A program made the position numbers and the translations under genes. Shown in pieces: positions 33,924 through 51,353 of a stretch of DNA of 64,000 bases. This DNA is from Streptomyces sp. DG2A-72. GTDB lineage: Bacteria; Actinomycetota; Actinomycetes; Streptomycetales; Streptomycetaceae. The stretch's first letter is position 1, and each line of letters starts with the position of its first letter. The notes under the pieces are model-generated. The model saw nothing but the letters and a program-made list of their open reading frames with translations, was not told the origin of the DNA and did not search any database. The DNA lies in contig NZ_JASTLC010000001.1 of assembly GCF_030499575.1 (NCBI RefSeq), positions 6,162,001-6,226,000 of the forward strand, given 5' to 3'.

Positions 33924-33965
33924 GTCCGGCCACCCCCTAAGACTGAAGAGAATCTGAGGAGAATC

Positions 33966-34487: not shown

Positions 34488-34511
34488 TCACGGCGGCGTC
34501 TGTTCGTACCC

Positions 34512-34558: not shown

Positions 34559-34697
34559 CCCAGCCACAGGCGTATAACGGCACAAGGCGCTCAGCAGCTG
34601 GCGTGATCGGATGCTTTCCAAACAGAGCTTTCATCAGATTCTTGGAGGGCTTCAGGATTCGAGCCCCTTCCGGGAACTGTGAACGTATGGAGGACAA

Positions 34698-36056
34698 GTG
34701 GGACGACTCTTCGGCACGGACGGCGTGCGCGGCGTCGCCAACGCGGATCTGACGGCCGAGCTGGCACTCGGCCTCTCCGTCGCCGCGGCGCACGTACTGG
34801 CCGAGGCGGGCACGTTCACGGGGCACCGGCCGACCGCCGTGGTCGGCCGTGACCCGCGCGCGTCCGGGGAGTTCCTGGAGGCCGCCGTGGTCGCGGGTCT
34901 GGCCAGCGCGGGTGTGGACGTCCTGCGCGTCGGTGTGCTGCCGACGCCCGCGGTGGCGTACCTGACGGCGGAGCTGGGCGCCGACCTCGGTGTCGTGCTC
35001 TCCGCCAGCCACAACGCCATGCCTGACAACGGCATCAAGTTCCTCGCCCGCGGCGGCCACAAGCTGGACGACGAGTTGGAGGAGCGAATCGAGGCCGTCT
35101 ACGAGGAGCACCGCACCGGTGCGCCGTGGGACCGGCCGACGGGTGCGGGCGTCGGGCGGGTGCGGTCGTACGAGGAAGGGTTCGACCAGTACGTCGCCCA
35201 TCTCGTCGGCGTGCTGCCGAACCGGCTGGACGGGCTGAAGATCGTGCTGGACGAGGCGCACGGTGCGGCTTCCCGGGTCTCGCCGGAGGCCTTCGCGCGT
35301 GCCGGTGCCGAGGTCGTCACGATCGGTGCCGAGCCGGACGGGCTCAACATCAACGACGGCTGTGGTTCCACGCATCTGGGCCTGCTCAAGGCCGCGGTTG
35401 TCGAGCACGGGGCCGACTTCGGTATCGCGCACGACGGGGACGCGGACCGGTGCCTGGCAGTGGACCACACCGGTGAGGAAGTCGACGGCGACCAGATCCT
35501 GGCCGTGCTCGCGCTGGCGATGCGGGAACGCTCCGCGCTGCGTGCCGAGACGGTGGTGGCGACCGTGATGTCCAACCTCGGGTTCAAACTGGCCATGGAG
35601 CGTGCGGGATTGACGCTCATTCAGACTGCCGTCGGTGACCGGTATGTGCTGGAGGAGATGAAGGAGCACGACTACGCCCTCGGCGGTGAGCAGTCCGGGC
35701 ACGTCATCATCCTCGACCACGCGACGACCGGTGACGGCACGTTGACCGGGCTGCTGCTGGCGGCGCGGGTCGCGGAGACGGGCCGTACGCTGCGGGACCT
35801 CGCTTCTGTCATGGAGCGGTTGCCTCAGGTGCTCATCAATGTGCCGGATGTCGACAGGTCCCGTGTCGGGAACTCGGCCGAGCTTGCCGTTGCCGTTGCT
35901 GAGGCGGAGCGGGAGTTGGGGGCGACTGGGCGTGTGTTGCTCCGGCCGTCCGGTACCGAGCCGTTGGTGCGGGTGATGGTGGAGGCGGCGGATATCGAGC
36001 AGGCTCGGTCTGTGGCCGGGCGGCTGGCTGATGCGGTGAAGTCGGCGCTCGGGTAG
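34698..36056 (+). CDS. glmM: phosphoglucosamine mutase
   Basis: A 452-residue enzyme converting glucosamine-6-phosphate to glucosamine-1-phosphate for peptidoglycan precursors. The N-terminus [20 protein letters not shown] and the phosphoserine loop [16 protein letters not shown] (Ser near residue 102) are diagnostic, as are the metal-binding [12 protein letters not shown] and the C-terminal [14 protein letters not shown]. The start is GTG after ATGGAGGACAA. glmS later in the window supplies its substrate. Confidence 0.97.
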
Positions 36057-36070
36057 ATCCTCGCGCCGGG

Positions 36071-36093
36071 CAGCCCCGCGCCCCTTCGGGGTG
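36071..36093 (+). repeat. short copy of the GC-rich repeat after glmM
   Basis: CAGCCCCGCGCCCCTT (36071-36086) is the exact reverse complement of 44241-44256 in the esterase gene. It folds as a CCCC-TTC-GGGG hairpin (36081-36091) 25 bp after the glmM stop and may act as its terminator. Confidence 0.6.
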
Positions 36094-36226
36094 CTGTGCT
36101 TCCGGTCTCTTGTCACAGCCGGATGAAAGGGCGTCGCCGAGGACTCAAATCCCCCACACGCCACCGTGATTCGCCCGGTTGCCCGCTCTCGCGCTGCCAT
36201 ATTCGACAACCACTTCGGAGGTGGTT

Positions 36227-37771
36227 GTGACGAATGAAGCGCACGTGGCCGGAGGCACCGCTGGGCGCATCGCTGATCTGGGCCGTCGCGAGGATCGGGC
36301 GGTGCGGGGTGGCGGGCCGAGCAGGCGAGGGGAGTTCGGGGCCCGGGAGCGGATCGAGCGGCTGGTGGACAAAGGTTCCTTCAGCGAGACCGGGCTGTTC
36401 GTGCGGGCACGGCCGACCGGTGACGGCGGCCGACGCCCCTACGGCGACGGTGTCGTCACCGGGTACGCCACCGTCGACGGGCGCCGGGTCTGCGTGTTCG
36501 CCCAGGACTCCGCCGTGTTCGGCGGGAGCATGGGCGAGGCGTTCGGCGAGAAGACCGTCGCCCTGATGGACCTCGCCCTCAAGACCGGCTGCCCGGTCGT
36601 CGGGCTCAACGACTCCGGCGGCGCCCGCATCCAGGAGGGCGTCGCCTCGCTCGCCCTCTACGCCGAGCTGGTGCGCCGCAATGTGCAGGCGTCCGGAGTC
36701 GTCCCGCAGATCTCCGTGGTGCTGGGGCCGTGCGCGGGCGGGGCCGCCTACTCGCCCGCGATCACCGACTTCACGGTGATGGTCGACGGCGCCTCGCACA
36801 TGTTCGTCACCGGCCCCGACGTCATCGAGGCGGTCACCGGCGAGCGTGCCAGCGCCGAGGAGCTGGGCGGCGCCCGCACCAGCAACGCCGTCAACGGCAA
36901 CGCGCACTTCCTCGCCGCCGACGAGGAGGAAGCGCTGGACGTCGTACGCGATCTGCTGTCGTATCTGCCCGCCAACAACCTGGAGCGCCCCCCGGAGTAC
37001 GCACCCGGGGATGCCCCGGACGGGGTCCGGCTCGACTCCGTCGTCCCGGACCGGACCGGACAGGCCTACGACATGCGGGAGATCGTGCGGGCGGTCGTCG
37101 ACGACGGTGAACTGCTCGATGTCCAGGAGCTGTTCGCGCCGAACATCATCTGTGCCCTGGCCCGCGTCGAGGGCCAGTCGGTCGGTGTCGTCGCGAACCA
37201 GCCGTTGCACGCCGCCGGTGTCCTCGACATCGACGCCTCGGAGAAGGCCGCACGCTTTGTGCGGTTCTGCGACGCGTTCGGGATCCCGCTGCTGACCTTC
37301 GCCGATGTGCCGGGCTATCTGTCCGGCGTACGGCAGGAGCGGGGCGGCATCATCCGGCGCGGCGCCAAACTGCTGTACGCGTACGCCGAGGCGACCGTCC
37401 CCAAGGTCACGGTCGTGGTGCGCAAGGCGTACGGCGGGGGGTACGCCGTGATGGGCTCCAAGCACCTGGGGGCCGACATCAACCTCGCCTGGCCCACCGC
37501 CCGTATCGCGGTGATGGGCGCCGAGGGCGCGGTGGGCGTCCTGCACCGGCGTGAACTGGCCGCCGCCGACGACCCCGAAGCGCTGCGGGCGCGCCTGGTC
37601 GCCGCCTACGAAGAGACCCACGGCACGCCCTACCTCGCCGCCGAACGCGGCTACGTCGATGCCGTCATCGCGCCGCACGACACCCGCGACCACATCTGCC
37701 GCGCGCTGCGCACCCTGCGCGGCAAACGCGCGCCTCTGCCGCAGCGCCGGCACGGCAACATCCCGCTCTGA
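36227..37771 (+). CDS. acyl-CoA carboxylase carboxyltransferase (beta) subunit
   Basis: A 514-residue AccD/PccB-type subunit that transfers CO2 from biotin to an acyl-CoA. Both crotonase-like halves are present, with GLNDSGGARIQEGVASL near residue 130 and DVPGYLSGVRQERGGIIRRG near residue 367 forming oxyanion regions. Position 407 (Ala in GGGYAVMGSK) corresponds to the residue that sets acyl-chain choice in PccB (Asp) and AccB (Ile). GTG 36227 has GGAGG five bases upstream. The genes that follow suggest it makes a carboxyacyl-CoA extender for the adjacent PKS, with a biotinylated alpha subunit encoded elsewhere. Confidence 0.88.
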   Translation: MTNEAHVAGGTAGRIADLGRREDRAVRGGGPSRRGEFGARERIERLVDKGSFSETGLFVRARPTGDGGRRPYGDGVVTGYATVDGRRVCVFAQDSAVFGGSMGEAFGEKTVALMDLALKTGCPVVGLNDSGGARIQEGVASLALYAELVRRNVQASGVVPQISVVLGPCAGGAAYSPAITDFTVMVDGASHMFVTGPDVIEAVTGERASAEELGGARTSNAVNGNAHFLAADEEEALDVVRDLLSYLPANNLERPPEYAPGDAPDGVRLDSVVPDRTGQAYDMREIVRAVVDDGELLDVQELFAPNIICALARVEGQSVGVVANQPLHAAGVLDIDASEKAARFVRFCDAFGIPLLTFADVPGYLSGVRQERGGIIRRGAKLLYAYAEATVPKVTVVVRKAYGGGYAVMGSKHLGADINLAWPTARIAVMGAEGAVGVLHRRELAAADDPEALRARLVAAYEETHGTPYLAAERGYVDAVIAPHDTRDHICRALRTLRGKRAPLPQRRHGNIPL

Positions 37772-38002
37772 CCGGAGGGAGGGAAGGGACCCCGGGGCGT
37801 GCGCAACGCCCCGTGACGGCCCGCCTGGCCTGCGCAGGCCCGCCGCAGCACGGTGAGCACGGCGCGATCGCACGGCTTCGGCCGCACCACCCGCACGAGT
37901 CCCGTATCCGACCCATCCGCCCGCACAGTCCCCCACGCATCTGACCCGCCTGGACCGGCAGTTGCTCGCCCAGCCGATCCCGGACGTGAGGAGCCACGCC
38001 AG

Positions 38003-39970
38003 ATGGACAGTCGTCGCCCCCCGCTCGCGCCCGCCTGCCGGACTCTGCCCCAGTACGTGCGGCACTGGGCCGAAGTCGCCCCGGATCGCCGGGCGTTCAC
38101 CTTCGTCGATCACCCCGTGCCGCACTCGCGCGGCGTCCACCGCACACTGACCTGGCGGCGCCTGGACCTGCGCGTGCGCGCGCTCGCCGCCCGGCTCGCC
38201 GAGGTGGCGGAGCCGGGGGCGCGGGTCGCGTTGCCGTGTCCGCAGGGGGTGGAGTACGTCACCGGGTTCCTCGGGGTGCTGGCCGCCGGGATGGTGGCCG
38301 TACCGCTGTATCCGCCGGGCCTGCCGGGGCACGCGGACCGGCTCGCGGGAGTGCTGGCCGACGCGCGCCCGGCCGCCGCGGTGACCACGAGCCGTGCCCG
38401 GCAGGAGGTGCGGGACTTCCTGACGGGGGTGGCGGGCCGGCCGGGCCGGACGCCGGTCGTCTGCGTCGACGAGGTGGCCGACGACGACGCCCGGGGGTGG
38501 CGCCCGGTCGACCCGGACGACGCCGGGGCCACCGCCTATCTCCAGTACACCTCCGGTTCGACCCGCGCTCCGGCCGGCGTGGAGATCACCCACGCCAATG
38601 TCGTCGCCAACGCCCGCCAGGCGCTGACCGCGTACGGCGCCGACGCCCATCCGGTGACGTGTGTGGGGTGGCTGCCGCTCTACCACGACATGGGACTGGT
38701 GCTCAGCGTGGCCGCGCCCGTGGTGCGCGGGCTGCTGTCGGTGCTGATGGATCCGGTCGCGTTTCTGCACGAGCCCGTGCGCTGGCTGAGGCTGCTCGCC
38801 GCGCATCCGCGTGCCGTGAGCGCCGCGCCCAACTTCGCGTACGACTACTGCGCGTCCGCCGTCACCGACACCCAGAAGGCGGACCTCCGGCTCGACGGGG
38901 TCACCGCGCTGATCAACGGCAGCGAACCGGTGCGCCCCGGTACCGCCGACCGCTTCCACGCCGCCTTCGCCGGCCAGGGGCTCGCGCCCACGACGCACTG
39001 CCCCTCATACGGGCTCGCCGAGGCCACCGTCTTCGTCAGTGCCGCCCGGCCCGGTGTACCGATCGGCCGTTTCGCCCTGGACCGTGACGCGCTCGCCGCC
39101 GGGAAGGCGTTGCCCGCGCGGCCCGACGACCCCAGGGCCGTGCTGCTGGCCGGCTGTGGGACCCCGGCGGGGCAGCGCGTGCGCATCGCCGACCCCGCGG
39201 GCCGAGCCGTCCTGGCCGAGGGCGAGGTCGGCGAGATATGGGTGCAGGGTCCCAATGTCGGCCGCGGCTACTGGAACCGGGCGGAGGAGAGCGAGCGGGT
39301 CTTCGGGGCCGGGTTCGCGGACGCCGGGGGCGCGCCGGACGGCCGTTGGCTGCGTACGGGGGACCTGGGGGCGGTGCTGGAGGGGCAGCTGCTCGTCACC
39401 GGCCGACTGAAGGACCTCGTCATCGTCGACGGCCGCAACCACTACCCACAGGACCTGGAGGCCACGGCTCAAGAGGCGCACCCGGCCGTACGACGGGACC
39501 GGCTCGCCGCGTTCGCCGTGCCCGGCGGGGCGGGGGAGCGGGTCGTGATCGTGGCCGAGCATGTGCGCACCGCGGTCCTGGCCGCACTGGACGTACCGGC
39601 CGTGGCACGTGCCGTACGCGGCGCCGTCTCCGCCCGGCACGGCCTACGGCTGGACGACGTCGTACTCGTCCCGCCGGGGACGGTCGCACGCACCTCCAGC
39701 GGCAAGGTGTCGCGTGCGCTGACGCGGGGTCGGTATCTGGAGGGGGCGTATTCGGGGACTGCCGAGGCGGTGGCGGGCGGCGCGGCCGGGGGTGGTGCGG
39801 TGGTGGCGGGCGGCAGATCAGCGGATGGTGCGGTACCGGTCGGCACGACGGCAGGCGACACGGCCCCCAGCGACACGCGTCCCACCCGCCTGCCTGCCAC
39901 CGACCCGACCACGCAGCACACTCCACCACCCCCCACAGCCCTCGACGACGCCACGGAGGTCGCAGGATGA
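38003..39970 (+). CDS. fatty-acyl-AMP ligase (FadD32-like FAAL)
   Basis: A 655-residue adenylating enzyme. The ATP-binding loop YTSGSTRAPAGVEITHAN is near residue 183, YGLAEATVFVSA near 335, and GRNHYPQDLEATAQEA, a hallmark of FAALs, near 475. The C-terminal lysine lies in TSSGKVSRAL near 563. The last 70 residues are Ala/Gly/Thr/Pro-rich and probably flexible. FAALs load fatty acids as acyl-AMP onto an ACP rather than CoA. ATG 38003 has GAGGAG upstream. The stop overlaps the PKS ATG, so the two are coupled. Confidence 0.9.
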   Translation: MDSRRPPLAPACRTLPQYVRHWAEVAPDRRAFTFVDHPVPHSRGVHRTLTWRRLDLRVRALAARLAEVAEPGARVALPCPQGVEYVTGFLGVLAAGMVAVPLYPPGLPGHADRLAGVLADARPAAAVTTSRARQEVRDFLTGVAGRPGRTPVVCVDEVADDDARGWRPVDPDDAGATAYLQYTSGSTRAPAGVEITHANVVANARQALTAYGADAHPVTCVGWLPLYHDMGLVLSVAAPVVRGLLSVLMDPVAFLHEPVRWLRLLAAHPRAVSAAPNFAYDYCASAVTDTQKADLRLDGVTALINGSEPVRPGTADRFHAAFAGQGLAPTTHCPSYGLAEATVFVSAARPGVPIGRFALDRDALAAGKALPARPDDPRAVLLAGCGTPAGQRVRIADPAGRAVLAEGEVGEIWVQGPNVGRGYWNRAEESERVFGAGFADAGGAPDGRWLRTGDLGAVLEGQLLVTGRLKDLVIVDGRNHYPQDLEATAQEAHPAVRRDRLAAFAVPGGAGERVVIVAEHVRTAVLAALDVPAVARAVRGAVSARHGLRLDDVVLVPPGTVARTSSGKVSRALTRGRYLEGAYSGTAEAVAGGAAGGGAVVAGGRSADGAVPVGTTAGDTAPSDTRPTRLPATDPTTQHTPPPPTALDDATEVAG

Positions 39971-42900
39971 AGGCCGTCGACGCGGACGTGCTGCGGCGGG
40001 TGATCGCCGAGCGGGCGGCCTCGTGGCACGGTTCGGCGCCCGAGGACGTTCCGATGGACCGGCAGCTGGCCGAGCTCGGCATGTCGTCGCGGGACGCGGT
40101 CGCGCTGGCCGGGGAGCTGTCCCGGGTCACGGGCTGCGAGCTGCCGCCCACGCTGCTGTGGGAGACGCCGACCGGTGACGCGTTGGTGGCGCGGCTGTGC
40201 GGTACGGCCCTCGGCCCCGCGCCGCTGGTCATGGCGCCCGGTGCGCCCGGCGAGCCCTTGGCGGTCATCGGCGTCGGCTGCCGGCTGCCGGGCGGGGTGC
40301 ACGCCCCGAGTGACTACTGGCGGCTGCTGTGTGAAGGCGGGGACGCGATCCGGCGCGTGCCGGAGGACCGGTGGCGCGACTTCACCGCCTTCCCGCCCGC
40401 CGACGCGCATCCGTACGGCGGCTATCTCGACGACATCGCCGGGTTCGACGCGGACTTCTTCCGCATCACGCCGCGCGAGGCCGCGGTGATGGACCCCCAG
40501 CAGCGGATCCTGCTGGAGGTCGTCCACGAGGCGCTGGAACACGCCGCCGTGCCGGCCGCGTCCCTGGCGGGTACGGCCACGGGCGTCTTCGTCGGCGTCT
40601 CCGCCCCGGAGTACGGCCAGCTCACCGGCGCCGACCCGGCCGCTGTCGACCCCTGGGCACCGGCCGGCGCTGCCCTCAGCGTCACCGCGGGCCGGCTGGC
40701 GTACGTCCTGGACACGCGCGGGCCGTGCCTGGCCGTGGACACCGCGTGCTCCTCCTCGCTGGTCGCCGTGCACCATGCCTGCGTCAGCCTGCGGGCCGGT
40801 GAGAGCGAGACGGCGATCGCCGCCGGGGTCAACCTGCTGCTGTCACCGGCCGTCACCGTCGCCTTCGAGCGGGCGGGTGTCCTCGCGCCGGACGGGCGCT
40901 GCAAGCCGTTCTCGGCGGCGGCCGACGGCATCGGGCGCGGCGAGGGCTGCGCGGCCGTGGTCCTGAAGCTGCTGTCGCACGCCGAGCGGGACGGCGACCG
41001 GGTGCTGGCGGTGATCCGTACGACGGCCGTCAACTCCGACGGGCGGTCGAACGGGCTCATGGCGCCCAACCCCGCCGCCCAGCGCGCCCTGCTGGAGACC
41101 GCGTACGCACGAGCCGGACTCACCCCGGGACAAGTCGACTTCGTCGAGGCGCACGGCACCGGCACCCCGCTCGGCGACCCGATCGAGGCAGGCGCGCTAG
41201 CCGCGGTGCTCGGCGCCGCCCGCGACCCCGACCAGCCGCTGCTGCTCGGCTCCGTCAAGGGCAACCTCGGTCACCTGGAGTCGGCCGCGGGCATCGCCGG
41301 CCTGGTCAAGACGGTGCTCGCCCTCCATCACGACGTCATCCCGCCCTCCCTGCACTGCACACACGGCAGCGCGCTCGGCGACGACCGGCTGCGGGTGGTG
41401 ACCGAGCCCGAGCAGTGGCCCCGTTACGGCGGCACGGCCACCGCCGGGGTCTCCGGATTCGGCTTCGGCGGCACCAACGCCCATGCCGTCCTGGAGGAAT
41501 GGCGGTCTGTCGGCCCCTCGCCGACCCCGGCCGACGAGCCCGCCGTCCGGCTTCACCTGCTCTCCGACGCCGACGCCGAGCGGGTGCGCGACACCGCCGC
41601 CCGGATCGCCGACTGGCTGGACACCAGCGCCGCACACCCGGCCGACATCGCCCGCACCCTCGCCGGACGCACTGCCCGGGGACCCGTACGCGCCGCCGTG
41701 GCCGCCCGTGACCGGGCCGAACTCGCCGACGCGCTCCGTGCGTTGGCGGCGGGACGGCCGGACGAGCGCGTCGTCACCGGCGACCGCGACCTCGTCGGAC
41801 GAGGCGGCACGGTGTGGGTGTTCTCCGGCTACGGCTGCCAATGGCCCGGCATGGGACGCCGGCTCCTGGAGGAGGAGCCCGCGTTCGCCGCCGCCGTGGA
41901 GAAGCTCGACCCGCAGCTCGCCGCGGAGTGCGGCGGTCTGTCCCTGTACGACCACCTGGCATCCGGCACCGGCCTGGACCGTCTGGAAACCGCCCAGCCC
42001 CTCCTCTTCGGCCTCCAGCTGGCGCTCGCGGAACTATGGCGTTCGTACGGTGTCGAGCCCGCGGCCGTGATCGGTCACTCCATGGGCGAAGTGGCCGCCG
42101 CGGTGTGCGCGGGCGCCCTCGGCGTGTCGGACGGCGCCCGCGTCATCGCCGTACGCGCCCGGCTGCTGAGCGGACTGCGGGGCGGGGCGATGGCCGTCGT
42201 CGACCTCGACGACTGCGAACTCGGGCGCCTGGCACAGGACTTCCCGGGGGTCCACGTCGCCGTGCACTCCTCTCCCCGGCAGAAGGTCGTCACCGGAGAG
42301 GGGGCGGCGGTGGGCCGCCTGGTGCGGCGGCTTGAGAAGGAAGGCCGGGCGGCCCGGGCCATGCGGGTCGTCGGCGCCGGGCACTCTCCGCAGGTCGACG
42401 CGCTGCTGCCGGAGCTGGCCGACGGGCTGGCCCGCGTGACGGGGCGCCGGCCGCGCCTGCCCGTCTACTCCACCGTCCTCGACGACCCGCGCGGCGCGAG
42501 CGCCTTCGACGCCGCCCACTGGGTTGCCAACCTGCGGCGGCCGGTTCGCCTGGACCGTGCCGTCGCTTCGGCCGTGGCCGACGGACACACCGCCTTCCTG
42601 GAGATCTCCCCCCACCCGGTCCTCACGGGCGCCGTCACCGACTCCGCGCCCGGCTGTCTCGCCCTGGCCACGCTGCGCCGCGACGCCGACGGACCGGCCG
42701 CGTTCGCCGCGCAACTGGGCGCGCTGTACACGGCCGGGCAACGGCTGCCGCTGCCGCCCGGCCGGGTCGTCGACGTACCCCGGCCGCGCTGGCGCCATGT
42801 GCGGCACTGGTGGACGGACGGGAGGACGAGGGCGGGGACTCCGTCGACGGCGGGGCTGACGGGTGCCCGGGCCGACGGCCCCGCGCACGGGGCTGGCCCC

Positions 42901-44001
42901 GCCGCCGACGGCACCGCCGAGGGCGCCGCGCATCCGGGGGCGGCCCTCTCCCCGGTCCTCACCCGTCTCAGCCACCACATCGCCGCCGTCAGCGGCCATC
43001 CGCCGACCCGGGTCACGCCGGACACCGCCCTCGCCGACCTCGGCCTCGACTCGCTGATGGCCGTCCGCGTCCGCACGGCCCTGGAGCGCGAGTTCCGTAT
43101 CGAGCTGCCCCTGCGCGACCTGCTCGGCGCCGCCACCGTCGCCGAGGCCGCCGCCCGCGTCGAGCGGGCCCTTCCCCAGTCGGCCGGTGGTGTGTGGCCG
43201 CGTCCCCTGCGCGCCACCGGCTCCCGTCCTCCCCTCTTCCTCGTGCACGCGGCCGGGGGACCGACCACCGTGTACCGGCCGCTCACCGAGCGACTCGGCG
43301 CCGACCAGCCGGTGTTCGGACTCGACCGGATCGAACAGGCCCGCACGGTGGCGGACAAGGCACGGCGGTACGCCGAGGCCGTCACCACCGCACACCCCGA
43401 CGGGCCCGTCCTGCTGGGCGGCTGGTCCTTCGGCGGCTTCGTCGCCCAGGAGACCGCGCGGCAGCTGGCCGACGCGGGACGGGACGTACGGCTGCTGGTG
43501 CTCATCGACTCCGTACGCCCGCTCGTCGATCCCGGCCCGGCGCCGGCGGACCGGATCCGGGCGCACTTCGAGGGCTTCGCCGCCCACGTGGCCGACACCT
43601 ACGGGGTCCGGCTGGAGCTGCCGTACGACGACCTCGTGGTCATGGACGACGACGAGCACCGTATCGACGCCGTGCTGAAGGCGCTGAGCGCGGTCGCCGA
43701 CGTGCCGGCCGCCTCGTTGGAGCACCAGCGCGCCTCCTACCTGGACCTGACGATCGGCGAGGCGCACCGCCCAGGCCGGTACGACGGCCGCGTGGTCCTC
43801 TACCGGGCGGCCGAACCCGCCCCGCACACCGTGCGCGACCCCGTCTACGAGCGAGACGACGAGGCGCTGGGCTGGGACGAGGTGTGCCCGGACCTGGAGG
43901 TCGTCCGGGTCGCCGGACACCATCTGGCGCTGCTCGACCCGCCGTACGTCGACGAGATCGCCGCCCACCTAGGGCCCGTTCTGAGTTCCCCGTCCCCCTG
44001 A
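39967..44001 (+). CDS. Pks13-like polyketide synthase, ACP-KS-AT-ACP-TE
   Basis: A 1344-residue condensing enzyme. Domain order: N-terminal ACP with Ser41 (ELGMSSRDAVAL); ketosynthase about 96-515 with Cys261 (VDTACSSSL), His396 (EAHGTGT) and His436 (GNLGHLES); acyltransferase about 610-900 with Ser705 (GHSMGE) and His806 in the motif GAGH; a second ACP with Ser1029 (LGLDSLMAV); and a thioesterase from about 1080 with Ser1154 (GGWSFGG) and His1319. No ketoreductase is present. The layout equals mycobacterial Pks13, which condenses a FAAL-loaded acyl chain with a carboxyacyl unit. ATG 39967 overlaps the FAAL stop. Confidence 0.9.
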   Translation: MKAVDADVLRRVIAERAASWHGSAPEDVPMDRQLAELGMSSRDAVALAGELSRVTGCELPPTLLWETPTGDALVARLCGTALGPAPLVMAPGAPGEPLAVIGVGCRLPGGVHAPSDYWRLLCEGGDAIRRVPEDRWRDFTAFPPADAHPYGGYLDDIAGFDADFFRITPREAAVMDPQQRILLEVVHEALEHAAVPAASLAGTATGVFVGVSAPEYGQLTGADPAAVDPWAPAGAALSVTAGRLAYVLDTRGPCLAVDTACSSSLVAVHHACVSLRAGESETAIAAGVNLLLSPAVTVAFERAGVLAPDGRCKPFSAAADGIGRGEGCAAVVLKLLSHAERDGDRVLAVIRTTAVNSDGRSNGLMAPNPAAQRALLETAYARAGLTPGQVDFVEAHGTGTPLGDPIEAGALAAVLGAARDPDQPLLLGSVKGNLGHLESAAGIAGLVKTVLALHHDVIPPSLHCTHGSALGDDRLRVVTEPEQWPRYGGTATAGVSGFGFGGTNAHAVLEEWRSVGPSPTPADEPAVRLHLLSDADAERVRDTAARIADWLDTSAAHPADIARTLAGRTARGPVRAAVAARDRAELADALRALAAGRPDERVVTGDRDLVGRGGTVWVFSGYGCQWPGMGRRLLEEEPAFAAAVEKLDPQLAAECGGLSLYDHLASGTGLDRLETAQPLLFGLQLALAELWRSYGVEPAAVIGHSMGEVAAAVCAGALGVSDGARVIAVRARLLSGLRGGAMAVVDLDDCELGRLAQDFPGVHVAVHSSPRQKVVTGEGAAVGRLVRRLEKEGRAARAMRVVGAGHSPQVDALLPELADGLARVTGRRPRLPVYSTVLDDPRGASAFDAAHWVANLRRPVRLDRAVASAVADGHTAFLEISPHPVLTGAVTDSAPGCLALATLRRDADGPAAFAAQLGALYTAGQRLPLPPGRVVDVPRPRWRHVRHWWTDGRTRAGTPSTAGLTGARADGPAHGAGPAADGTAEGAAHPGAALSPVLTRLSHHIAAVSGHPPTRVTPDTALADLGLDSLMAVRVRTALEREFRIELPLRDLLGAATVAEAAARVERALPQSAGGVWPRPLRATGSRPPLFLVHAAGGPTTVYRPLTERLGADQPVFGLDRIEQARTVADKARRYAEAVTTAHPDGPVLLGGWSFGGFVAQETARQLADAGRDVRLLVLIDSVRPLVDPGPAPADRIRAHFEGFAAHVADTYGVRLELPYDDLVVMDDDEHRIDAVLKALSAVADVPAASLEHQRASYLDLTIGEAHRPGRYDGRVVLYRAAEPAPHTVRDPVYERDDEALGWDEVCPDLEVVRVAGHHLALLDPPYVDEIAAHLGPVLSSPSP

Positions 44002-44040
44002 ACCGGAACCCGAGTCCAACCGGATCCCCGAGGAGCCGCC

Positions 44041-45171
44041 ATGCCCCGCCGTACCACCGGAATCACCGGAATCACCAGAATCACTGAAGCCACCGGAGTG
44101 TCCCGGCGTACCGCCGCCAAGGCGACGGCCGCCACCGGTCTGGCCGTCCTGTTCGGCGCGGCGACCGGCACGACCCGCGCCCGGGCGGCCACCCGGCTGA
44201 GCGGACCTGGTGAAGCCGGCTGCGGTTCGCCAGCGCCGCCAAGGGGCGCGGGGCTGTGTCGATCAGCGGCTTCGCCGCGGGGCGCGACCAGCAACGACGG
44301 CGCCGCAGACGAACGACGGCGCAACGCGGCACTTCCAGCGGAGCGCTTGGCGCCGCGCACCCTGGACCTCGCCGTGCCCTCCGCCGCCCTGGGCCGCAGC
44401 GCGCCGGTGCGGCTGATCCTGCCGTCCGGCTTCGACACGGCCGCCGGGCGGAGGTATCCCGTGCTGTATCTGCTGCACGGCGCCCACGACGACTACACGT
44501 CCTGGACCCGGGAGACGGACATCGAGTCCTTCACCGAGGGCCGGGACCTGATCGTGGCGATGCCGGACGCGGGCCCCACGGGCATCCCCAGTGCCTGGCG
44601 CGACGGCCCGGACTACGAGACGTTCCAGGTCGAGGAGGTTCCGGCGCTGCTCGCGCGGGACTACCGGGCCTCCGGCGTACGGGCCGTCGCCGGCGTGTCG
44701 ACGGGCGGCTACGGCGCGATGGCGCACGCGGCCCGCCATCCGGGCGTCTTCACCGCCGCCGCCTCCTACAGCGGTGTCCTCGACACCACCGCGCCCGGGG
44801 TGCCGGCCATCGTGGACGCGATCGTCGCCCGCGAGGGACTGTCACCGGCCTCACTGTGGGGCAACCCGCTCCTCAACCTCCTCACCTGGCGGGCCTTCAA
44901 CCCGCGCGCCCGCGCCGACGGACTGCGCGGCACGGCCCTGTACGTCTCGCAGGGCAGCGGACTGGCCGGCGGCATCGGCGACTGGCTGCCCGAGGCACTG
45001 GAGAGCGCCCTGTGGCCCTCGGCCCGCGGCTTCGCCGCCGCGCTCGCGCGCAGGGGTATCCCGGCCACCACGCACTTCTACGCGGGAGGGGGACACAGCT
45101 GGGCGTACTGGAAGGGGGAGTTCACAGCGTCGTGGCCGATCCTCGCCCACGCTCTGGGCGTGCCGGAGTGA
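44041..45171 (+). CDS. secreted esterase, antigen 85/esterase D-like
   Basis: A 376-residue protein with a Tat-like signal (SRRTAAKATAATG, then a hydrophobic stretch to ARA near residue 57), a 45-residue low-complexity linker and an alpha/beta-hydrolase domain. LYLLHGAHDDYTSWTRE, the nucleophile loop GVSTGGYGAM and GGHSWAYWKGEF near the C-terminus match the esterase family that includes mycolyltransferases. The linker is encoded by an inverted copy of the GC-rich repeat. The N-terminus has a 9-bp tandem repeat (GITGITRIT). GAGGAG supports ATG 44041; GTG 44098 is an alternative. It follows the PKS by 39 bp, so an acyl-transfer role is possible. Confidence 0.8.
   Translation: MPRRTTGITGITRITEATGVSRRTAAKATAATGLAVLFGAATGTTRARAATRLSGPGEAGCGSPAPPRGAGLCRSAASPRGATSNDGAADERRRNAALPAERLAPRTLDLAVPSAALGRSAPVRLILPSGFDTAAGRRYPVLYLLHGAHDDYTSWTRETDIESFTEGRDLIVAMPDAGPTGIPSAWRDGPDYETFQVEEVPALLARDYRASGVRAVAGVSTGGYGAMAHAARHPGVFTAAASYSGVLDTTAPGVPAIVDAIVAREGLSPASLWGNPLLNLLTWRAFNPRARADGLRGTALYVSQGSGLAGGIGDWLPEALESALWPSARGFAAALARRGIPATTHFYAGGGHSWAYWKGEFTASWPILAHALGVPE
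44241..44308 (-). repeat. GC-rich repeat embedded in frame in the esterase gene
   Basis: On the minus strand this reads CAGCCCCGCGCCCCTT at its end and includes the hairpin GCGGC-TTC-GCCGC (44266-44278). It resembles the long form of the intergenic repeat family. It encodes linker residues about 67-90 of the secreted esterase without breaking the frame. Confidence 0.7.
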
Positions 45172-45293
45172 TGTCCGCGCCATGGGGGCACGGAACGGAG
45201 CGGCGAGGACGTCCGTCCTACCCAGGACGTCCCACTCGTCCCACGGGCAACAGCGCGCGGGCGAGTCGCTTCCGGGCGAAAGGAGTGTCCCCG

Positions 45294-46514
45294 ATGGCTG
45301 TTGGCACGCCGCACGAGGTGCCGGAGGCGCGCGGAGCCGTGCCCGCGCCGCCCGGGTTGGTGGAGCTGCTGCGGGCCCGGCTGGAGGAGGTGGCCGATGG
45401 GGTGGACGAGGAGGTACGCAGCCGGGTTCCCGAGTACGCGCGGCTCGGCGACGACACCGACCGCAAGCGGCTGCGGGACGGCGTGGTGCAGGCGCTCACC
45501 CTGTTCGTCGACCACATCGCCGACCCGCGCAACAACGGGGAGTCGATCGCGGCGACGTACTACGAACTCGGGCGCGGCGAGGCCCTGGAGGGCCGCGGTC
45601 TGGACCCGCTGCAGTCCGCGCTGCGCGTCGGCGGCATGCACGCCTGGCGGCAGCTGTGCCGCACGGCGGAGGAGCTGGGGCTGGACTCGACGGTCATGGC
45701 CGCGCTGGGCGAGCTCGCCTTCCGCACGGTGCACGAGGTCGCGGAGGCGGCTGCCGCCGGTTACGCGGAGGCCCAGCTGCGCAGCACGGACGAGGTGGAG
45801 CGGCGCCGCAGGCGCCTGCTGGACCTGCTCCTGGGCGAGGGCCCGGTGGCCTTGGAGGCCGTGCAGGACCTGGCGCACCAGGCCCGGTGGCCGGTGCCGC
45901 GGCAGGTCGCCGTCGTCGCCCTCGCGGCCACTCCCGAACAGCGCGAGGAGGAGCGGCCGTTATCCATGGCGGACGCGCTGGTGGACATGGAGTCCCGGCC
46001 GCCCCGCATGCTGGTGCCCGACCCCGATCGCCCCGGGCGGTGGGCCGGCCGCGGTTTCGCGCTCGCGCTGCGCGGACGTCCCGCCGCGATCGGCCCGACG
46101 GTCCCGCTCACCGCGGCAGCGCAGTCCCTGCGCTGGGCCACCCGGGCGCTGGGCCTGATGGGGCGCGGAGTCCTGCCCGGGCAGGGTGTGGTGCGGTGCG
46201 CCGACCACCTGTCGACCCTCCTGCTGCACGCCGACGAGCCGCTCCTCGCCGAACTCCGGGCAACCGCCCTGACCCCGCTCGACGAGGTCTCGGCCGGCCA
46301 GCGCGCCCGGCTCGCCGAGACGCTGCTGGCCTGGCTGCTCAGCGGCAGCAACGTGCCCGACGTCGCCGCCCGGCTGCACATCCACCCGCAGACGGTCCGC
46401 TACCGGCTGCGCCAGCTGGACAAGCTGTTCGGCGACACCCTGCACGATCCGGGGGCCCGCCTCGACCTCGTGCTCGCCCTGCGCGCCGAATCGCTGCGCG
46501 CACAACCGGAGTAG
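45294..46514 (+). CDS. PucR/CdaR-type transcriptional regulator
   Basis: A 406-residue protein with a C-terminal PucR helix-turn-helix (about 345-400): SNVPDVAARLHIHPQTVRYR followed by LRQLDKLFGDTLHDP. The N-terminal 170 residues resemble the RsbR/FasR-like regulatory region (YARLGDDTDRKRLRDGV). S. coelicolor FasR, the activator of fatty-acid synthesis genes, belongs to this family, so a lipid-related role here is plausible. I chose ATG 45294 with AAGGAG 8 bp upstream, not the long upstream frame that overlaps the esterase. Its likely targets are the flanking lipid genes. Confidence 0.85.
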   Translation: MAVGTPHEVPEARGAVPAPPGLVELLRARLEEVADGVDEEVRSRVPEYARLGDDTDRKRLRDGVVQALTLFVDHIADPRNNGESIAATYYELGRGEALEGRGLDPLQSALRVGGMHAWRQLCRTAEELGLDSTVMAALGELAFRTVHEVAEAAAAGYAEAQLRSTDEVERRRRRLLDLLLGEGPVALEAVQDLAHQARWPVPRQVAVVALAATPEQREEERPLSMADALVDMESRPPRMLVPDPDRPGRWAGRGFALALRGRPAAIGPTVPLTAAAQSLRWATRALGLMGRGVLPGQGVVRCADHLSTLLLHADEPLLAELRATALTPLDEVSAGQRARLAETLLAWLLSGSNVPDVAARLHIHPQTVRYRLRQLDKLFGDTLHDPGARLDLVLALRAESLRAQPE

Positions 46515-46519
46515 CCCGA

Positions 46520-46551
46520 CTACTCATTGGCTACCCATTGACTACTCATTG
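46520..46551 (+). repeat. three 10-bp direct repeats with 11-bp period
   Basis: CTACTCATTG (46520-46529), CTACCCATTG (46531-46540) and CTACTCATTG (46542-46551) follow each other at one helical turn, just after the regulator stop codon and about 120 bp before the cutinase start. The arrangement suits cooperative binding of a regulator, possibly the adjacent PucR-type protein. Confidence 0.6.
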
Positions 46552-46556
46552 AGCGA

Positions 46557-46580
46557 AGAAAAAGCCGCCGCTTTTCTTTC
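46557..46580 (+). terminator. terminator-like hairpin after the regulator gene
   Basis: AAAAGC (46560-46565) pairs with GCTTTT (46570-46575) around CGCC. Further A/T pairs extend the stem, and CTTTC follows. It is a short intrinsic terminator candidate between the regulator and the cutinase gene. Confidence 0.5.
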
Positions 46581-46672
46581 TTCTGTCCATAACACCCGGC
46601 AGATCCGGGCGAATACTTTCGAGTCCTCCTTTCCCGCAGGCGCGTCATGCGCCCCCACATGGAGGACGGCCC

Positions 46673-47314
46673 ATGCGTATTCGTTCGTGTCTCGCCGCGC
46701 TCTCGCTGCTCGGCGGGGCCTCGGTCGCCACCCTCACGGCGCCCTCGGCGTCGGCCGTGGCCTGCTCGGACATCGAGGTCGTCGCTGCTCGCGGCACCTT
46801 CGAGCCGGGCACGCTCGGCTTCATTGTCGGCGATCCGGTGTACTCCGCACTGCAGAAGAAGCTGACCGGCAAAACCCTTTCCAGCTACAAGGTGAATTAC
46901 CCGGCGGACCTTTCACCCACTTCGGCCGCACGGGGAAACGCGGATCTGGTGAATCACGTCAACAGCCAGGCCTCCGCGTGCCCGAACCAGCGGTTCATTC
47001 TCGTGGGCTATTCACAGGGCGCGAACGTCGTCGACAACTCGATCGGCATCAGCAGCGCCGGCGCGGTGGTCGGCAGCCCGATCGTGGCCACCCTGCCGGC
47101 GGCGGTCGAGCCGAAGGTCGCCGCGGTGCTGCTGTTCGGCAACCCGATCCGGGCCCTCGGCAAGAGCGTCACGGGCACCTACCAGAGCCGCACGATCGAC
47201 TTCTGCGCCAAGGGCGACCCCATCTGTGAGAACGGTGGGAACGACATGGGTGCCCACCTCGGCTACACGGCCGACGCGGACGCCGCCGCCGCGTTCGCGG
47301 CGGGCAAGGTCTGA
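46673..47314 (+). CDS. secreted cutinase-family esterase (Culp-like)
   Basis: A 213-residue protein with a Sec signal peptide (cleavage near SASAVA, residue 29). The cutinase fold is shown by DIEVVAARGTFEPGT at the N-terminus, the nucleophile motif LVGYSQGANVV (Ser near 116) and DFCAKGDPICENGGNDMGAH carrying the catalytic Asp and, further on, His. Four cysteines can form the two usual disulfides. Actinobacterial Culp proteins are lipases or phospholipases. Culp6 (Rv3802c) sits in the mycolate locus of M. tuberculosis. GGAGG lies 7 bp before the ATG. Confidence 0.9.
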   Translation: MRIRSCLAALSLLGGASVATLTAPSASAVACSDIEVVAARGTFEPGTLGFIVGDPVYSALQKKLTGKTLSSYKVNYPADLSPTSAARGNADLVNHVNSQASACPNQRFILVGYSQGANVVDNSIGISSAGAVVGSPIVATLPAAVEPKVAAVLLFGNPIRALGKSVTGTYQSRTIDFCAKGDPICENGGNDMGAHLGYTADADAAAAFAAGKV

Positions 47315-47322
47315 GCCGTACG

Positions 47323-47372
47323 ACACGAACAGCGGCCCGGGGAGGTGCGACTTCCCGGGCCGCTATTCGTGT
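47323..47372. terminator. bidirectional terminator between convergent genes
   Basis: ACACGAA (47323-47329) with TTCGTGT (47366-47372), and AGCGGCCCGGG (47331-47341) with CCCGGGCCGCT (47354-47364), form an 18-bp stem with one mismatch. It lies between the cutinase stop and the end of the minus-strand hydrolase gene. Confidence 0.85.
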
Positions 47373-47391
47373 CTGTACTGCTGTCGTACTG

Positions 47392-49113
47392 CTATCGCGG
47401 GTCCCCGGCGAACCGCGCCAGGTTGGCGGATACCGGCTCGGGCCGGCCGTTGTTCTGTGCCGGCGCCGCGGTCAGCACATCGAGGTGCTGGTAGCCGTCG
47501 GCGACCACGGGGTGCAGGTCGGCCGGGACGCGGCCGGCCAGCAGGCCGTCGCCCGCGAGCACGGTCAGGGTGGGGTTGGCGGTGAGCCCGCCGGGATGTA
47601 CGACGAGCCGCTTCACCTGCGGTGAGGTGGCCAGCTCCAGGTCGGTGACCAGCTTGGTCGGGAAGTACTGCTCGGTGAAGTCCAGCGGCTGCTCGGCCAG
47701 GCTCCGGGCCAGCTCCTGGATGTCGGTGACCTCCTTGCCCGCGTCGGTGAACGGCGTGCCGTCGGCCGACCTGTACCCGGGATCGTCGGCGTCACCGACA
47801 CGGTCGTAATTGCGCCAGGTGTACAGCGGCCCCCCGGGCCGGTCCGGGATGGCCTTGTACTCCGTGCCGAACAGCCCGGGCTGCTCCTGACCGCTGTTGG
47901 CGACGGGGAAGTTCTTGTCGGCGACGGGCCCGCCGTCGAAGAACCCGACGCTGCTCTGCAGGAAGGCGAGCGGTACGGAGTGGTCGTCCAGCAGGGCGCC
48001 CAGTACCGCCTCGTTGGTGAGCCGGAAGTCCTTCACGGCGGGGGAGCCGGTGAGGAAGGCGGCGGCGTCCTTGGAGAACAGGAAGCGGTTGGTGGCCTCG
48101 ATGTTGAGGTCGGACGGCAGATAACGGGGCAGGTCGGCCTCGGTTCCTGGATCGCGTACGGCACCCAGGCCGGCGATGGCGAGCAGCGTCATGGTCTGGG
48201 GGTTGAGCAGCACCGGGGCGGACAACGACCGTGGCAGCACTCCGCTGTCGAGGCCGGCCTGTACGACGCCGTATCCGAGGCCGATGTCGGGCAGGTTGGT
48301 GTCGTCCGGGATGCTGCCGCTGAGGTCGGCGAGTGAGGTGGAGACGGTGGTGTCGAGGGCGAAGTAGCCGGCGCACTGGTTGTAGCCGGCGTCGGCCGTG
48401 GTCGCCGGGTTGCCGTCGAAGTCGGCGGCGGCGAAGTACCCGGTGACGACGCCGCCCAGCGAGTGCCCGCCGCACAGCACCTTGCGCCCTCGCAGCGCCT
48501 GGTCGGGCAACTCGGCGGTGAGCAGGTCGTACTGGTCCCGGACGGTCTGCTCGATGCCGAGCCGCGCCATCCAGCCCAGCTTGTCGTTGCCGGCGAAGCC
48601 CCCGAAGGTCCGGCCGTCGACCTGCTTGCCGCGGTAGTAGTAGTCGACGGCCGTGTGCTGGTCGCCGGAGGCGATGCCGGTGCGGTCCTCCAGGCAGTTG
48701 GAGCGGCGGTCCAGCGCCCAGAACTCGATGTGCCGGCCCTGCTCGGCGGCCGCCGCCACCGTGTTGCGGGCGACGCTGTCGAAGGCCCCGGCGCCCTCCA
48801 GGATGCCCGGCTGGGCGACGAGGATCCGGTCCGCGTCGGCGGAGGCGGCCGGCCCGTCGGCGGCGCGGTAGCGCAGATACGACAGCCAGTCGCACGCGGC
48901 CGGGCGGGGGCCCGCCGACTTGGGCAACGGCACCTTCACCCGCACCACTGACTCGCGCACCCCGGCGACCGCCGACTCCACGGCCACGGGGGTCTCGGTC
49001 CGCGCCTCGTCCGCACGGGCGCCAGGGGCCGCCGCTGTGAGCGTCCCCGCGGTCAACAGCGCCGCCAGCGCGACACCGCGCCACGTTCTTTTCCTGCTGC
49101 GAATCGTGTCCAT
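47392..49113 (-). CDS. secreted alpha/beta hydrolase (lipase-like)
   Basis: A 573-residue protein with a clear signal peptide (basic start, hydrophobic stretch to about residue 34, ARADE). The alpha/beta-hydrolase nucleophile motif is CGGHSLGGVVTG near residue 220. Paired cysteines fit an external enzyme. The C-terminal segment contains a conserved-looking VADGYQHLDVLTAAPAQNN with a candidate catalytic His. The substrate is unknown. The adjacency to cutinase, esterase and a condensing PKS suggests lipid or lipid-ester processing. Confidence 0.75.
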   Translation of the reverse strand: MDTIRSRKRTWRGVALAALLTAGTLTAAAPGARADEARTETPVAVESAVAGVRESVVRVKVPLPKSAGPRPAACDWLSYLRYRAADGPAASADADRILVAQPGILEGAGAFDSVARNTVAAAAEQGRHIEFWALDRRSNCLEDRTGIASGDQHTAVDYYYRGKQVDGRTFGGFAGNDKLGWMARLGIEQTVRDQYDLLTAELPDQALRGRKVLCGGHSLGGVVTGYFAAADFDGNPATTADAGYNQCAGYFALDTTVSTSLADLSGSIPDDTNLPDIGLGYGVVQAGLDSGVLPRSLSAPVLLNPQTMTLLAIAGLGAVRDPGTEADLPRYLPSDLNIEATNRFLFSKDAAAFLTGSPAVKDFRLTNEAVLGALLDDHSVPLAFLQSSVGFFDGGPVADKNFPVANSGQEQPGLFGTEYKAIPDRPGGPLYTWRNYDRVGDADDPGYRSADGTPFTDAGKEVTDIQELARSLAEQPLDFTEQYFPTKLVTDLELATSPQVKRLVVHPGGLTANPTLTVLAGDGLLAGRVPADLHPVVADGYQHLDVLTAAPAQNNGRPEPVSANLARFAGDPR

Positions 49114-49167
49114 GCCACGAACGCTAGGTTCCGGGGACCGCCCCGCTCAGCAGGTGCTGACAGGAAC

Positions 49168-50160
49168 TCAGTTTTCCGGTACGCCCTTGTCCCCGGCGGA
49201 CAAAACGCCCTGCTGGACGCCGCTCGTCTTCACCGGACGCCCACGCTGCCCGGCCCACAGCCATTTCTGTGCCAGGAGTGTGAGGGTGCCGGCCAGGGTG
49301 ATGCCCAGCAGGTTGAGCAGGAGTTGTTCGGTGGAGCCCCAGGTCTGCTTGGTGTCGCCGTAGCTCAGGGCGACCGCCGCGTTGGCTGCCGCGGGGACTG
49401 TCGTCACGGAGATGGCTACGCCTACCAGGGCGCCCGACTTGGCTGAAGTGAGGGAGAGGGTGCCCGCGATGCCGGCCAGGACCGCCACGATGAAGGAGAA
49501 CTCGTCGGGGGCGTAGATGAAGGCGGTGTTGGGCCGTGTGGCGTCCAACTGCTCCCGCGTGAACTCTCCGATCGAGTCCATGAAGAGGCTGAAGGCGACG
49601 GTCACCGCCATCGCCACCGCGAAGCCGACCAGCAGGGCGATCAGTGAGCGCACGGCGAGGCGGGGATGGCGCTGGACGATCGCCGTGGAGAAGCCGGCCA
49701 GCGGGCCGAACTCCGGGCCGACCGCCATCGCGCCCACGATCAGGATCGCGTTGTCGAGCACGACACCGCAGGCCGCGATCATCGTGGCGAGCGTGATGAA
49801 GGCGACGTAGGTGATCGACAGGGTCGACTCCTCGTGCGTCGCTTCGGCGAGGTGCTCCCACAGGACCGCGTCCGCGGCCTCGCCGGGCGCCTCGTCCTCG
49901 GCCTTGTCGGCGCGCTTGGACAGCGACAGGTCGATGTTCTCGACGGCGATGGACCCGAGCTTGTCGAGGTCCAACTCCTGCAGCTTGCTGAGGAGTTCGT
50001 CGCCCGCCTCGCGCGCCACGTCGCACATCACCACGTCCCCCGCCGGGTTGCGGGCCGTGCCCGGCAGCACCACGAGGTGGGTGGTGCCGACGGTCTTCTC
50101 GATCAGGCGGACCACGTCGGCCGTCTTGTCGGACGGCGTGATCAGGCGGAGGTGCAGCAT
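49168..50160 (-). CDS. DUF389-family membrane protein
   Basis: A 330-residue protein. The N-terminal soluble domain (1-115) starts LHLRLITPSDKTADVVRLIE. The membrane part (about 120-310) has about six helices, including DNAILIVGAMAVGPEFGPLA, a strong signature of the DUF389/TIGR00341 family. The function of the family is not established. It lies 16 bp downstream of coaA on the same strand, a pairing probably conserved in streptomycetes. Confidence 0.85.
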   Translation of the reverse strand: MLHLRLITPSDKTADVVRLIEKTVGTTHLVVLPGTARNPAGDVVMCDVAREAGDELLSKLQELDLDKLGSIAVENIDLSLSKRADKAEDEAPGEAADAVLWEHLAEATHEESTLSITYVAFITLATMIAACGVVLDNAILIVGAMAVGPEFGPLAGFSTAIVQRHPRLAVRSLIALLVGFAVAMAVTVAFSLFMDSIGEFTREQLDATRPNTAFIYAPDEFSFIVAVLAGIAGTLSLTSAKSGALVGVAISVTTVPAAANAAVALSYGDTKQTWGSTEQLLLNLLGITLAGTLTLLAQKWLWAGQRGRPVKTSGVQQGVLSAGDKGVPEN

Positions 50161-50176
50161 GGGGGCAGGGTAGCGG

Positions 50177-51175
50177 TCACAACTTGCGCAGACTGAGCCG
50201 CTGCACCTTGTGGTCGGGGCCCTTGCGGATGATCAGGGTGGCGCGGCCCCGGGTGGGGGCCACGTTCTCGATGAGGTTCGGCCTGTTGATCGTGCGCCAG
50301 GTGGTGCGAGCGTAGTCGAGGGCCTCCTCCTCGGAGACCTGGGTGTACTTGCGGAAGTACGAGGACGGGTTCTGGAAGGCGGTGTCGCGGAGTTTGCGGA
50401 ACCGGTTCAGATACCAGCGCTCGATGTCCTCGGGGCGGGCGTCGACGTACACGCTGAAGTCGAAGTAGTCGGCGAGACCGACGCGGGTGCGGCCGTCCTT
50501 GCCGGGGAGGGCGGGCTGGAGGACGTTCAGGCCCTCGACGATCAGGATGTCCGGGCGGCGGACGGTGAGCTGCTGGCCCGGGACGATGTCGTAGATCAGG
50601 TGGGAGTAGACGGGGGCCGTGACCTCGTCCTTGCCCGCCTTGATGTCGGCGACGAAGCGGGTGAGCGCGCGGCGGTCGTACGACTCGGGGAAACCCTTCC
50701 GCGACATCAGGCCGCGGGCCTGCAACTCCTTGGTGGGCAGGAGGAATCCGTCGGTGGTGACCCGCTCCACGCGCGGGTGCTCGGGCCAGCGGGAGAGCAG
50801 GGCCTGGAGGAGGCGGGCGACCGTGGACTTTCCTACGGCCACGGAGCCGGCGACGCCTATGACGAACGGGGTGCCGGACTGGGAGCCCTTCTCGCCGGTG
50901 TCACCGAGGAAGGTGTTCAGGGCGCCGCGGAGGCCGTCGGTGGCGCCGATGTAGAGGTTGAGGAGCCGGGACAGCGGGAGGTAGATGTCCCGCACCTCGT
51001 CGAGGTCGATGACATCGCCGAGGCCGCGCAGCTTCTCGACCTCCTCGGCGGTGAGGGGGAGCGGCGTCTTGTCGCGCAGCGCGCTCCACTGCGTGCGGGT
51101 GAGGTCGACGTAGGGAGTCGCCTCCGGCCTGTGCCGGTGGGCGCTCCGGGGCATCGGGGAGACCGGAGAGATCAC
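50177..51175 (-). CDS. coaA: pantothenate kinase, type I
   Basis: A 332-residue enzyme phosphorylating pantothenate, the first and regulated step of coenzyme A synthesis. The P-loop is [15 protein letters not shown] (about 108-122). [32 protein letters not shown] and [13 protein letters not shown] match CoaA. The start is GTG. CoA supply links it functionally to acpS later in the window, but there is no operon connection. Confidence 0.96.
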
Positions 51176-51351: not shown

Positions 51352-51353
51352 CC

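Follow-up and report, generated by a model that had tools for sequence, protein, structure and literature searches.

A conserved seven-gene cassette of Streptomyces related to the mycolic acid condensation genes of Mycobacteriales

The closest described relative of the genes reported here is the FadD32-Pks13-AccD4 locus of Mycobacteriales (with antigen 85/PS1). According to PMC6194230, mycolic acids occur only in the order Corynebacteriales, and PMC5311964 treats AccD4 as a protein whose presence goes along with mycolate synthesis. We analysed a stretch of 64,000 nucleotides from Streptomyces sp. DG2A-72 (hereafter, the window), in which seven genes at 36227..49113 form a cassette that resembles this locus, as an earlier note made from the sequence alone had proposed. 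Shared between the two are a carboxylase of the AccD4 clade, a fatty acyl-AMP ligase (FAAL), an enzyme with acyl carrier protein, ketosynthase, acyltransferase, acyl carrier protein and thioesterase domains in this order (ACP-KS-AT-ACP-TE), a mycolyltransferase-like secreted esterase and, near by, a cutinase-family protein. The cassette differs in having accD first and in a polyketide synthase (PKS) of 1344 amino acids, against about 1750, without room for the dehydratase remnant (DH*) and without the insert between ACP and TE. It also adds a PucR-type regulator and a divergent hydrolase gene, has no Culp6, and belongs to a Streptomyces host.

The mycobacterial neighbourhood that the earlier note described for M. 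tuberculosis is also seen in locus L107, where Pks13 and an AccD lie together with a FadD32-like FAAL, a gene of the cutinase family and three PF00756 genes. FadD26/PpsA, the entry step of phthiocerol synthesis, likewise has a FAAL adjoining ACP-KS-AT. It differs by a KS outside the clade described below, by the AT motif VAPH, and by the absence of any TE of the cassette type among the search results. By tree, the nearest KS outside the family is 57% identical and comes from genome G082; we take it to be PpsA-like from the run of PKS genes behind its FAAL. Alpha-branched beta-hydroxy acids of the lipstatin type are also known from Streptomyces, and arise by Claisen joining of two fatty acids. 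These are made by FabH/OleA-like enzymes, not by a FAAL-loaded type I PKS. No report of a gene set such as the present one in Streptomyces was found in the titles and abstracts of the literature searched, which was mostly open-licence.

In our judgement, the cassette is probably a unit for mycolate-type condensation and delivery. Together with a biotin carboxylase coded elsewhere in the genome, AccD would carboxylate a fatty acyl-CoA with a chain beyond propionyl length, giving a 2-carboxyacyl-CoA, while the FAAL would turn a second fatty acid into an acyl-AMP and pass it to the N-terminal ACP of the PKS. The AT would place the 2-carboxyacyl unit on the C-terminal ACP, the KS would perform a single decarboxylative Claisen condensation, and the TE would hand the alpha-alkyl-beta-keto acyl chain to an acceptor. 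If the TE only hydrolysed, the beta-keto acid would lose CO2 to give a ketone. After export, the acyl group would be moved from acceptor to acceptor on the outside by the mycolyltransferase-like esterase. The cutinase and the hydrolase, both secreted, would trim or recycle the product, and PucR would control the cassette.

This proposal builds on gene content, order, conservation, intact motifs, kinship to AccD4, Pks13 and the mycolyltransferases, and secretion-type N-termini; every reaction in it is presumed, as are the branch size, the acceptor, the exporter and a keto reduction by an enzyme coded elsewhere. No gene for a reductase, an exporter or an acceptor is present in the cassette block, which agrees with the remark in the earlier note that a dedicated ketoreductase is not visible. 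The alpha-branched beta-keto product suggested there is favoured by the AccD4-type pocket residue and by the crotonyl-CoA carboxylase/reductases (CCRs) of sister clusters. Nothing in the sequence indicates a long branch, or the trehalose acceptor that had been considered. That Streptomyces keep together a carboxylase of the AccD4 clade, a FAAL, a synthase of the Pks13 lineage and an esterase resembling mycolyltransferases complicates the picture of exclusivity, and suggests that streptomycetes with the cassette make and secrete a related branched lipid, of which the literature searched likewise gave no report.

A block of seven genes

The first gene, accD (36227..37771, forward strand), codes for the beta subunit (carboxyltransferase) of an acyl-CoA carboxylase (PF01039/Carboxyl_trans, 606 bits). 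It is followed on the same strand by the FAAL gene (38003..39970; AMP-binding, PF00501), whose product would load the N-terminal ACP, and by the gene of the Pks13-lineage synthase (39967..44001), in which Pfam recognises two PP-binding domains, KS, AT and Thioesterase. Next are the genes of a mycolyltransferase-like esterase of secreted type (44041..45171; PF00756, 106.6 bits), the PucR-type regulator (45285..46514; HTH_30, 68 bits) and a cutinase of secreted type (46673..47314; PF01083, 146 bits). The last gene (47392..49113) lies on the reverse strand and codes for a hydrolase-like protein of 573 amino acids, also of secreted type, with the nucleophile-elbow-like motif CGGHSLGG. Both Pfam matches and open reading frame coordinates bear out the seven genes as the earlier note had placed them. 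The N-termini of the esterase, the cutinase and the 573-amino-acid protein were judged by eye to be of the secretion type. The start codon of the FAAL, ATG at 38003, is preceded by a ribosome-binding-type sequence. Because the FAAL and PKS genes overlap by 4 bases and the esterase gene starts 39 bases past the PKS, the core genes and the esterase look like a single operon from their spacing.

The conservation of this arrangement was followed by scanning one genome per species with the TE, which gave 169 encoding stretches. The best 80 were kept, namely 78 cassette-type loci (L003-L080) and two from Sciscionella with a FAAL and a longer PKS. In 62 of the 78 at least 20.6 kb is available; the other 16 are short or cut by contig ends. 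Since the loci were retrieved via the TE alone, only the PKS is present by construction. All 62 loci carry accD, FAAL, PKS, esterase and PucR genes in the same order and strand. The gene set that the earlier note proposed to look for is found in many Streptomyces. The cutinase gene follows these five in 61/62 loci, and the divergent gene of the 573-amino-acid protein completes all seven in 56/62. Median identity to the window, taken per gene over the best aligned piece, ranges from 76 to 88%.

Homology of the 78 loci with the window, by blastn, is confined to 36099-49213, except in L003 and L004. The flanks of the window are common to these two and to a near relative, genome G104 (L123). The cassette is therefore a discrete block of about 13.1 kb. 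Its left edge is a conserved operon upstream region (36099..36226, forward strand), defined by the blastn edges and an alignment of 70 upstream regions, and its right edge is the upstream region of the hydrolase gene (49114..49213, reverse strand), from blastn edges and upstream alignment. The flanks of the cassette loci are not all different, but fall into several recurring neighbourhood types plus single cases. As homology ends at the block edges and the flanks vary, the borders drawn in the earlier note are natural borders of a block found in different chromosomal places.

In terms of distribution, 199 Streptomyces genomes were sampled, counting that of the window. A TE of at least 70% identity is present in 24 of these, and a match at E 1e-60 or better in 33. 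When the search with the TE was extended to 296 genomes of the class, 43 gave a match, with bit scores that drop in steps: 410-571 for the cassette type, 178-241 for the sister clusters (three further families), 133-164 for the family holding Pks13, and 80 or less for all else.

The condensing enzymes

The top PDB matches of the PKS are Pks13 entries and its best NCBIfam model is mycolic_Pks13 (NF040607, 1154 bits). Pfam confirms that the domain order of Pks13 is present. For the trees, we call the window type group A and compare it with two groups of sister clusters retrieved via the TE or the Pks13 model, group B (L109-L112, four loci) and group C (14 loci; L113, which carries the label B in the TE tree, is included by spacing). 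The careful KS tree has 47 rows, after ten modular rows of an earlier 57 were left out, three long-branched ones among them. In this tree A, B, C and Pks13 form one clade (30/47 rows, support 98/91), with the PpsA-like and modular KSs outside. The clade is wider than Pks13 itself, as it also holds groups B and C. Any of the three groups may be nearest to Pks13, the joining of A, B and Pks13 having p-AU 0.50. In the AT tree the same groups come together without the Sciscionella row (29/58 rows, 96 SH-aLRT), and in the TE tree they are united against six other TEs (33/39 rows, 100/99). The KS and TE trees called for in the earlier note thus place the enzyme with Pks13, and not with the modular PKSs that would have spoken against it.

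These trees bear directly on the idea of an ordinary modular-type PKS cluster whose neighbours are coincidental. The KS-AT part does align in a single stretch with modules of MAS and DEBS, at about 530-641 bits. However, forcing the group A KS among modular rows is rejected (p-AU 5.9e-6), and a modular PKS origin with it; the TE and AT trees contradict such an origin, and the gene order is kept in 62/62 loci. We consider this explanation very improbable.

The catalytic motifs are intact almost throughout the covered cassette loci: ACSSS in 72/72, HGTGT in 72/72, GHSxGE in 73/73, GLDS in 75/75, GWSFGG in 77/78 and GHH in 77/77. The N-terminal ACP has LGM(S/A)S in 65/70 loci, and reads ELGMSSRDAV in the window against ELGLSSRDAV in Pks13. 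The AT motif is GAGH in 73/73 cassette loci. Six Pks13 sequences were read for it, five having GASH and one, L229 (genome G309), GAGH. PpsA-like rows have VAPH, and modular rows HAFH, YASH or YAAH. Locus L087 had no covering alignment in the motif survey.

As for the carboxylase, the window AccD falls in a clade of 16 among 30 rows together with the AccD4 found beside Pks13 (96/95). It contains GGGYAVMGSKH, with Ala at the position of residue 422 in PccB (numbering from the PccB alignment). This Ala is found in 69/69 covered cassette loci, and AccD beside Pks13 also has it in the 3/3 genomes read. Among the other rows, those nearest PccB have Asp or Cys and the acetyl-type ones Ile, and the rows with the Asp, Cys and Ile forms lie outside the AccD4 clade. 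In PMC5311964, residue 422 is said to help choose the substrate in PccB-type enzymes, with Cys422 and Cys437 named, and AccD4 to carboxylate long chains only, in M. smegmatis; nothing on this residue was found in PMC13118682.

The FAAL has FAAL-type entries as best PDB matches, FadD32 among them. Against the FadD32 model (NF038339) it scores 522 bits, below the cut-off of 975. In the FAAL tree, in which the window's gene is entered twice and two rows are distant, the FAALs of A, B and most of C form their own group (89), and FadD32 joins the FAAL beside the PpsA-like KS (83). By its score, the FAAL does not count as specifically FadD32, the counterpart named in the earlier note.

Sister clusters and secreted enzymes

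The sister clusters share with the cassette the KS, AT and TE types of the PKS. Their hosts are Streptomyces, members of three other families (f17, f18, f46) and Sciscionella. Within the 18 stretches fetched, a FAAL is found in 15, a PucR homologue in 6, and an esterase homologue in 13, although the esterase was not used for retrieval. A CCR is present in 11/18 and AccD in 1/18, with neither in the remaining six. TIGR01751 was run on seven of the CCRs, and 7/7 are above its cut-off. No CCR was detected in the 78 cassette loci at the limit used. The lone sister AccD (L118) has the same Ala as the cassette enzyme. CCRs make alkylmalonyl-CoA, so a branched extender would be supplied by AccD in group A and alternatively by CCR in groups B and C. 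This reading fits the AT motif, which is GAGH in A and xAGH in 4/4 loci of B and 12/14 of C.

The same observations feed an alternative with identical enzymology and a short extender (about ethyl- to hexylmalonyl-CoA). The product would then be a beta-keto acid with a small branch, released or cyclised as a diffusible compound such as a signal, pyrone or lactone, and the secreted enzymes would act on this product or its ester. An AT motif of the xAGH type is known from ethylmalonyl- and alkylmalonyl-ATs, and CCRs, as found in the sister clusters, usually make short and medium alkylmalonyl units. Over the whole sequence, the window AccD also scores nearest to 9j0c (701 bits) and PccB (699), with AccD4 at 511 bits, and 9j0c has Gly at the pocket position. 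Yet in the tree this AccD lies in the AccD4 clade and not with the PccB rows, and one would hardly expect a small diffusible product to be served by a secreted enzyme of the mycolyltransferase kind. We regard the short-extender alternative as rather unlikely.

The AccD scores are one of several points that weigh against a mycolate-type unit or against full identity of the PKS with Pks13. Two group C loci depart from the AT motif, with AAAH in L222 and GGAH in L223. The AT of the cassette PKS is 33-39% identical to the ATs of Pks13 and 44-45% to three PpsA-like ones, and the Sciscionella AT falls outside the clade, beyond the PpsA-like rows. The NF040607 score misses the equivalog cut-off of 2100. 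PMC11649247 describes Pks13 as having a DH* remnant that separates AT from ACP, and also an ACP without function ahead of the TE. The domain spacing in the cassette PKS leaves no room for either. Five group A loci have 54-67 amino acids between AT and ACP and 14-38 between ACP and TE, against 175-204 and 195-267 in seven Pks13 loci. Since both the model cut-off and these two extra elements are missed, the PKS is not, judged by its sequence, a member of the Pks13 equivalog.

This spacing has a counterpart in the sister clusters. Ketoreductase (KR) and DH-type regions lie between AT and ACP in group C (Pfam, L114 and L118), where the two domains are 736-1107 amino acids apart (12 loci), against 47-67 in groups A and B. 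As the distance is long in C, short in A and B, and intermediate in Pks13, the comparison suggests that the reductive domains disappeared independently in Pks13, where a DH* stub stayed behind, and in the Streptomyces A/B enzymes. Sister clusters with a KR resemble the condition from which Pks13 would have arisen, and its DH* remnant would be explained in this way. The origin of the mycobacterial outer membrane thereby becomes testable.

Taken together, a wider picture can be drawn, which we hold as possible but with more doubt than confidence. Cassette-bearing streptomycetes would make a true mycolate-like lipid and deliver it to their surface, in which two fatty chains are joined to an alpha-alkyl-beta-keto or beta-hydroxy acid and esterified outside the cell by the mycolyltransferase homologue. 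Mycolate synthesis would then not be an invention of Mycobacteriales. It would belong, as a single branch, to an older family of actinobacterial synthases that are loaded by a FAAL and built as ACP-KS-AT-(DH-KR)-ACP-TE, with separate domain losses in Pks13 and the Streptomyces enzyme. As harmless relatives, the Streptomyces enzymes would also serve structural work on Pks13 and antigen 85.

The esterase has the PF00756 fold, and the Ser, Glu and His positions of the triad are kept in 76/76 covered loci. Its tree was built from 28 of 38 PF00756 matches, with L234 left out as the same gene as that of L118. At the root, the mycolyltransferase side separates (100/99) from four further esterases, of which three come from Streptomyces. 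The A, B and C esterases (87/78) branch beside the mycolyltransferases, as their sister group, and not inside them. The esterase is thus nearest to the mycolyltransferases, and an acyl-transfer function is predicted from this position.

At E 1e-12, no second cutinase was found in this genome beside the one at 46673..47314. The earlier note had compared it with Culp6 (Rv3802c), a comparison that fails, as the protein reaches 22.7 bits against a cut-off of 570 (NF050160) and stands apart in the tree from the cutinase-family genes near Pks13 (L284, L278 and L276). Of the interpretation offered there, the placing of PKS, carboxylase and esterase next to Pks13, AccD4 and the mycolyltransferases remains, and identities with Culp6 and, specifically, FadD32 are not supported. 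The best PDB match of the cutinase is 4psc, a carbohydrate esterase of family 5, presumably fungal. For the 573-amino-acid protein, searches of Pfam, NCBIfam and PDB gave no match within the limits used, and its predicted fold is at pLDDT 38; GHSLGG is present in 65/65 covered loci.

These enzymes could also be read as a scavenging unit, in which the secreted cutinase, esterase and hydrolase degrade lipid polyesters of plants or microbes, and FAAL and PKS turn the fatty acids into a metabolite. In this sense, all three secreted hydrolase-type proteins are present in 56/62 loci, the match to 4psc would fit, and several hosts in the TE scan belong to plant-associated species. The sister clusters speak against it, since the esterase is kept in 13 of the 18 stretches, with the cutinase and the 573-amino-acid protein in none. 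The constant partner of the synthase is therefore the mycolyltransferase-like esterase, and we find scavenging improbable beside a mycolate-type unit.

A few related genes were seen on the side. A fatty acid desaturase (L109:6373-7353) is coded behind the esterase in one cluster of group B. The two Sciscionella loci (L081 and L082) have the FAAL and the longer family PKS, with no match to esterase, accD or CCR in the fetched stretch. The window's own genome has a second esterase on the same side of the tree (L126:3027-3860), with no PKS match in the fetched 7 kb.

Regulation and genomic setting

Among the seven genes, the PucR gene is the sole carrier of a TTA codon (codon 226). Because only the regulator gene carries it, bldA might gate the cassette via this codon. 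Upstream of accD, TTGTCAC is found at 36110-36116 and CGCTGCCATATTCG at 36192. The consensus upstream of the hydrolase gene is GGTGACAA, with the window itself reading GGGGACAA at 49187-49194. The TTGTCAC and GGTGACAA elements are conserved across the cassette loci, and TTGTCAC and GGTGACAA/GGGGACAA may represent a possible shared operator. No RNA family was found at gathering score in 33000-51500, and no defence family among four proteins examined.

Spread by plasmids was rejected as far as the collection shows: 26 of 72,556 plasmid records match (E 1e-150), none over 80% of the PKS. A rule linking the cassette to chromosome arms was also rejected, as the contigs come without known origins and the copy in the window is part of the rpoA-glmM-glmS core. 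In this strain the cassette is in the core chromosome, since it is near ribosomal genes and rpoA and adjoins glmM (34725-36056) and a glmS-type gene (53862-55664). G104 likewise has the block beside glmM.

Further upstream, 738-16397 contains the genes of ribosomal proteins L2 and S3, secY, and those of adenylate kinase, an M24 peptidase, rpoA and a tRNA pseudouridine synthase. A locus of the poly-gamma-glutamate capsule type is found at 25089-32093, with PGA_cap, HAMP, Mur-ligase-like, CapC and NlpC/P60-type proteins. Lastly, an exopolysaccharide-type locus lies on the reverse strand at 16403-23832, with acyltransferase-SGNH, sugar nucleotidyltransferase, GH113-type and GH26-type proteins around a family 2 glycosyltransferase; as a guess, its polymer could be mannan-like.

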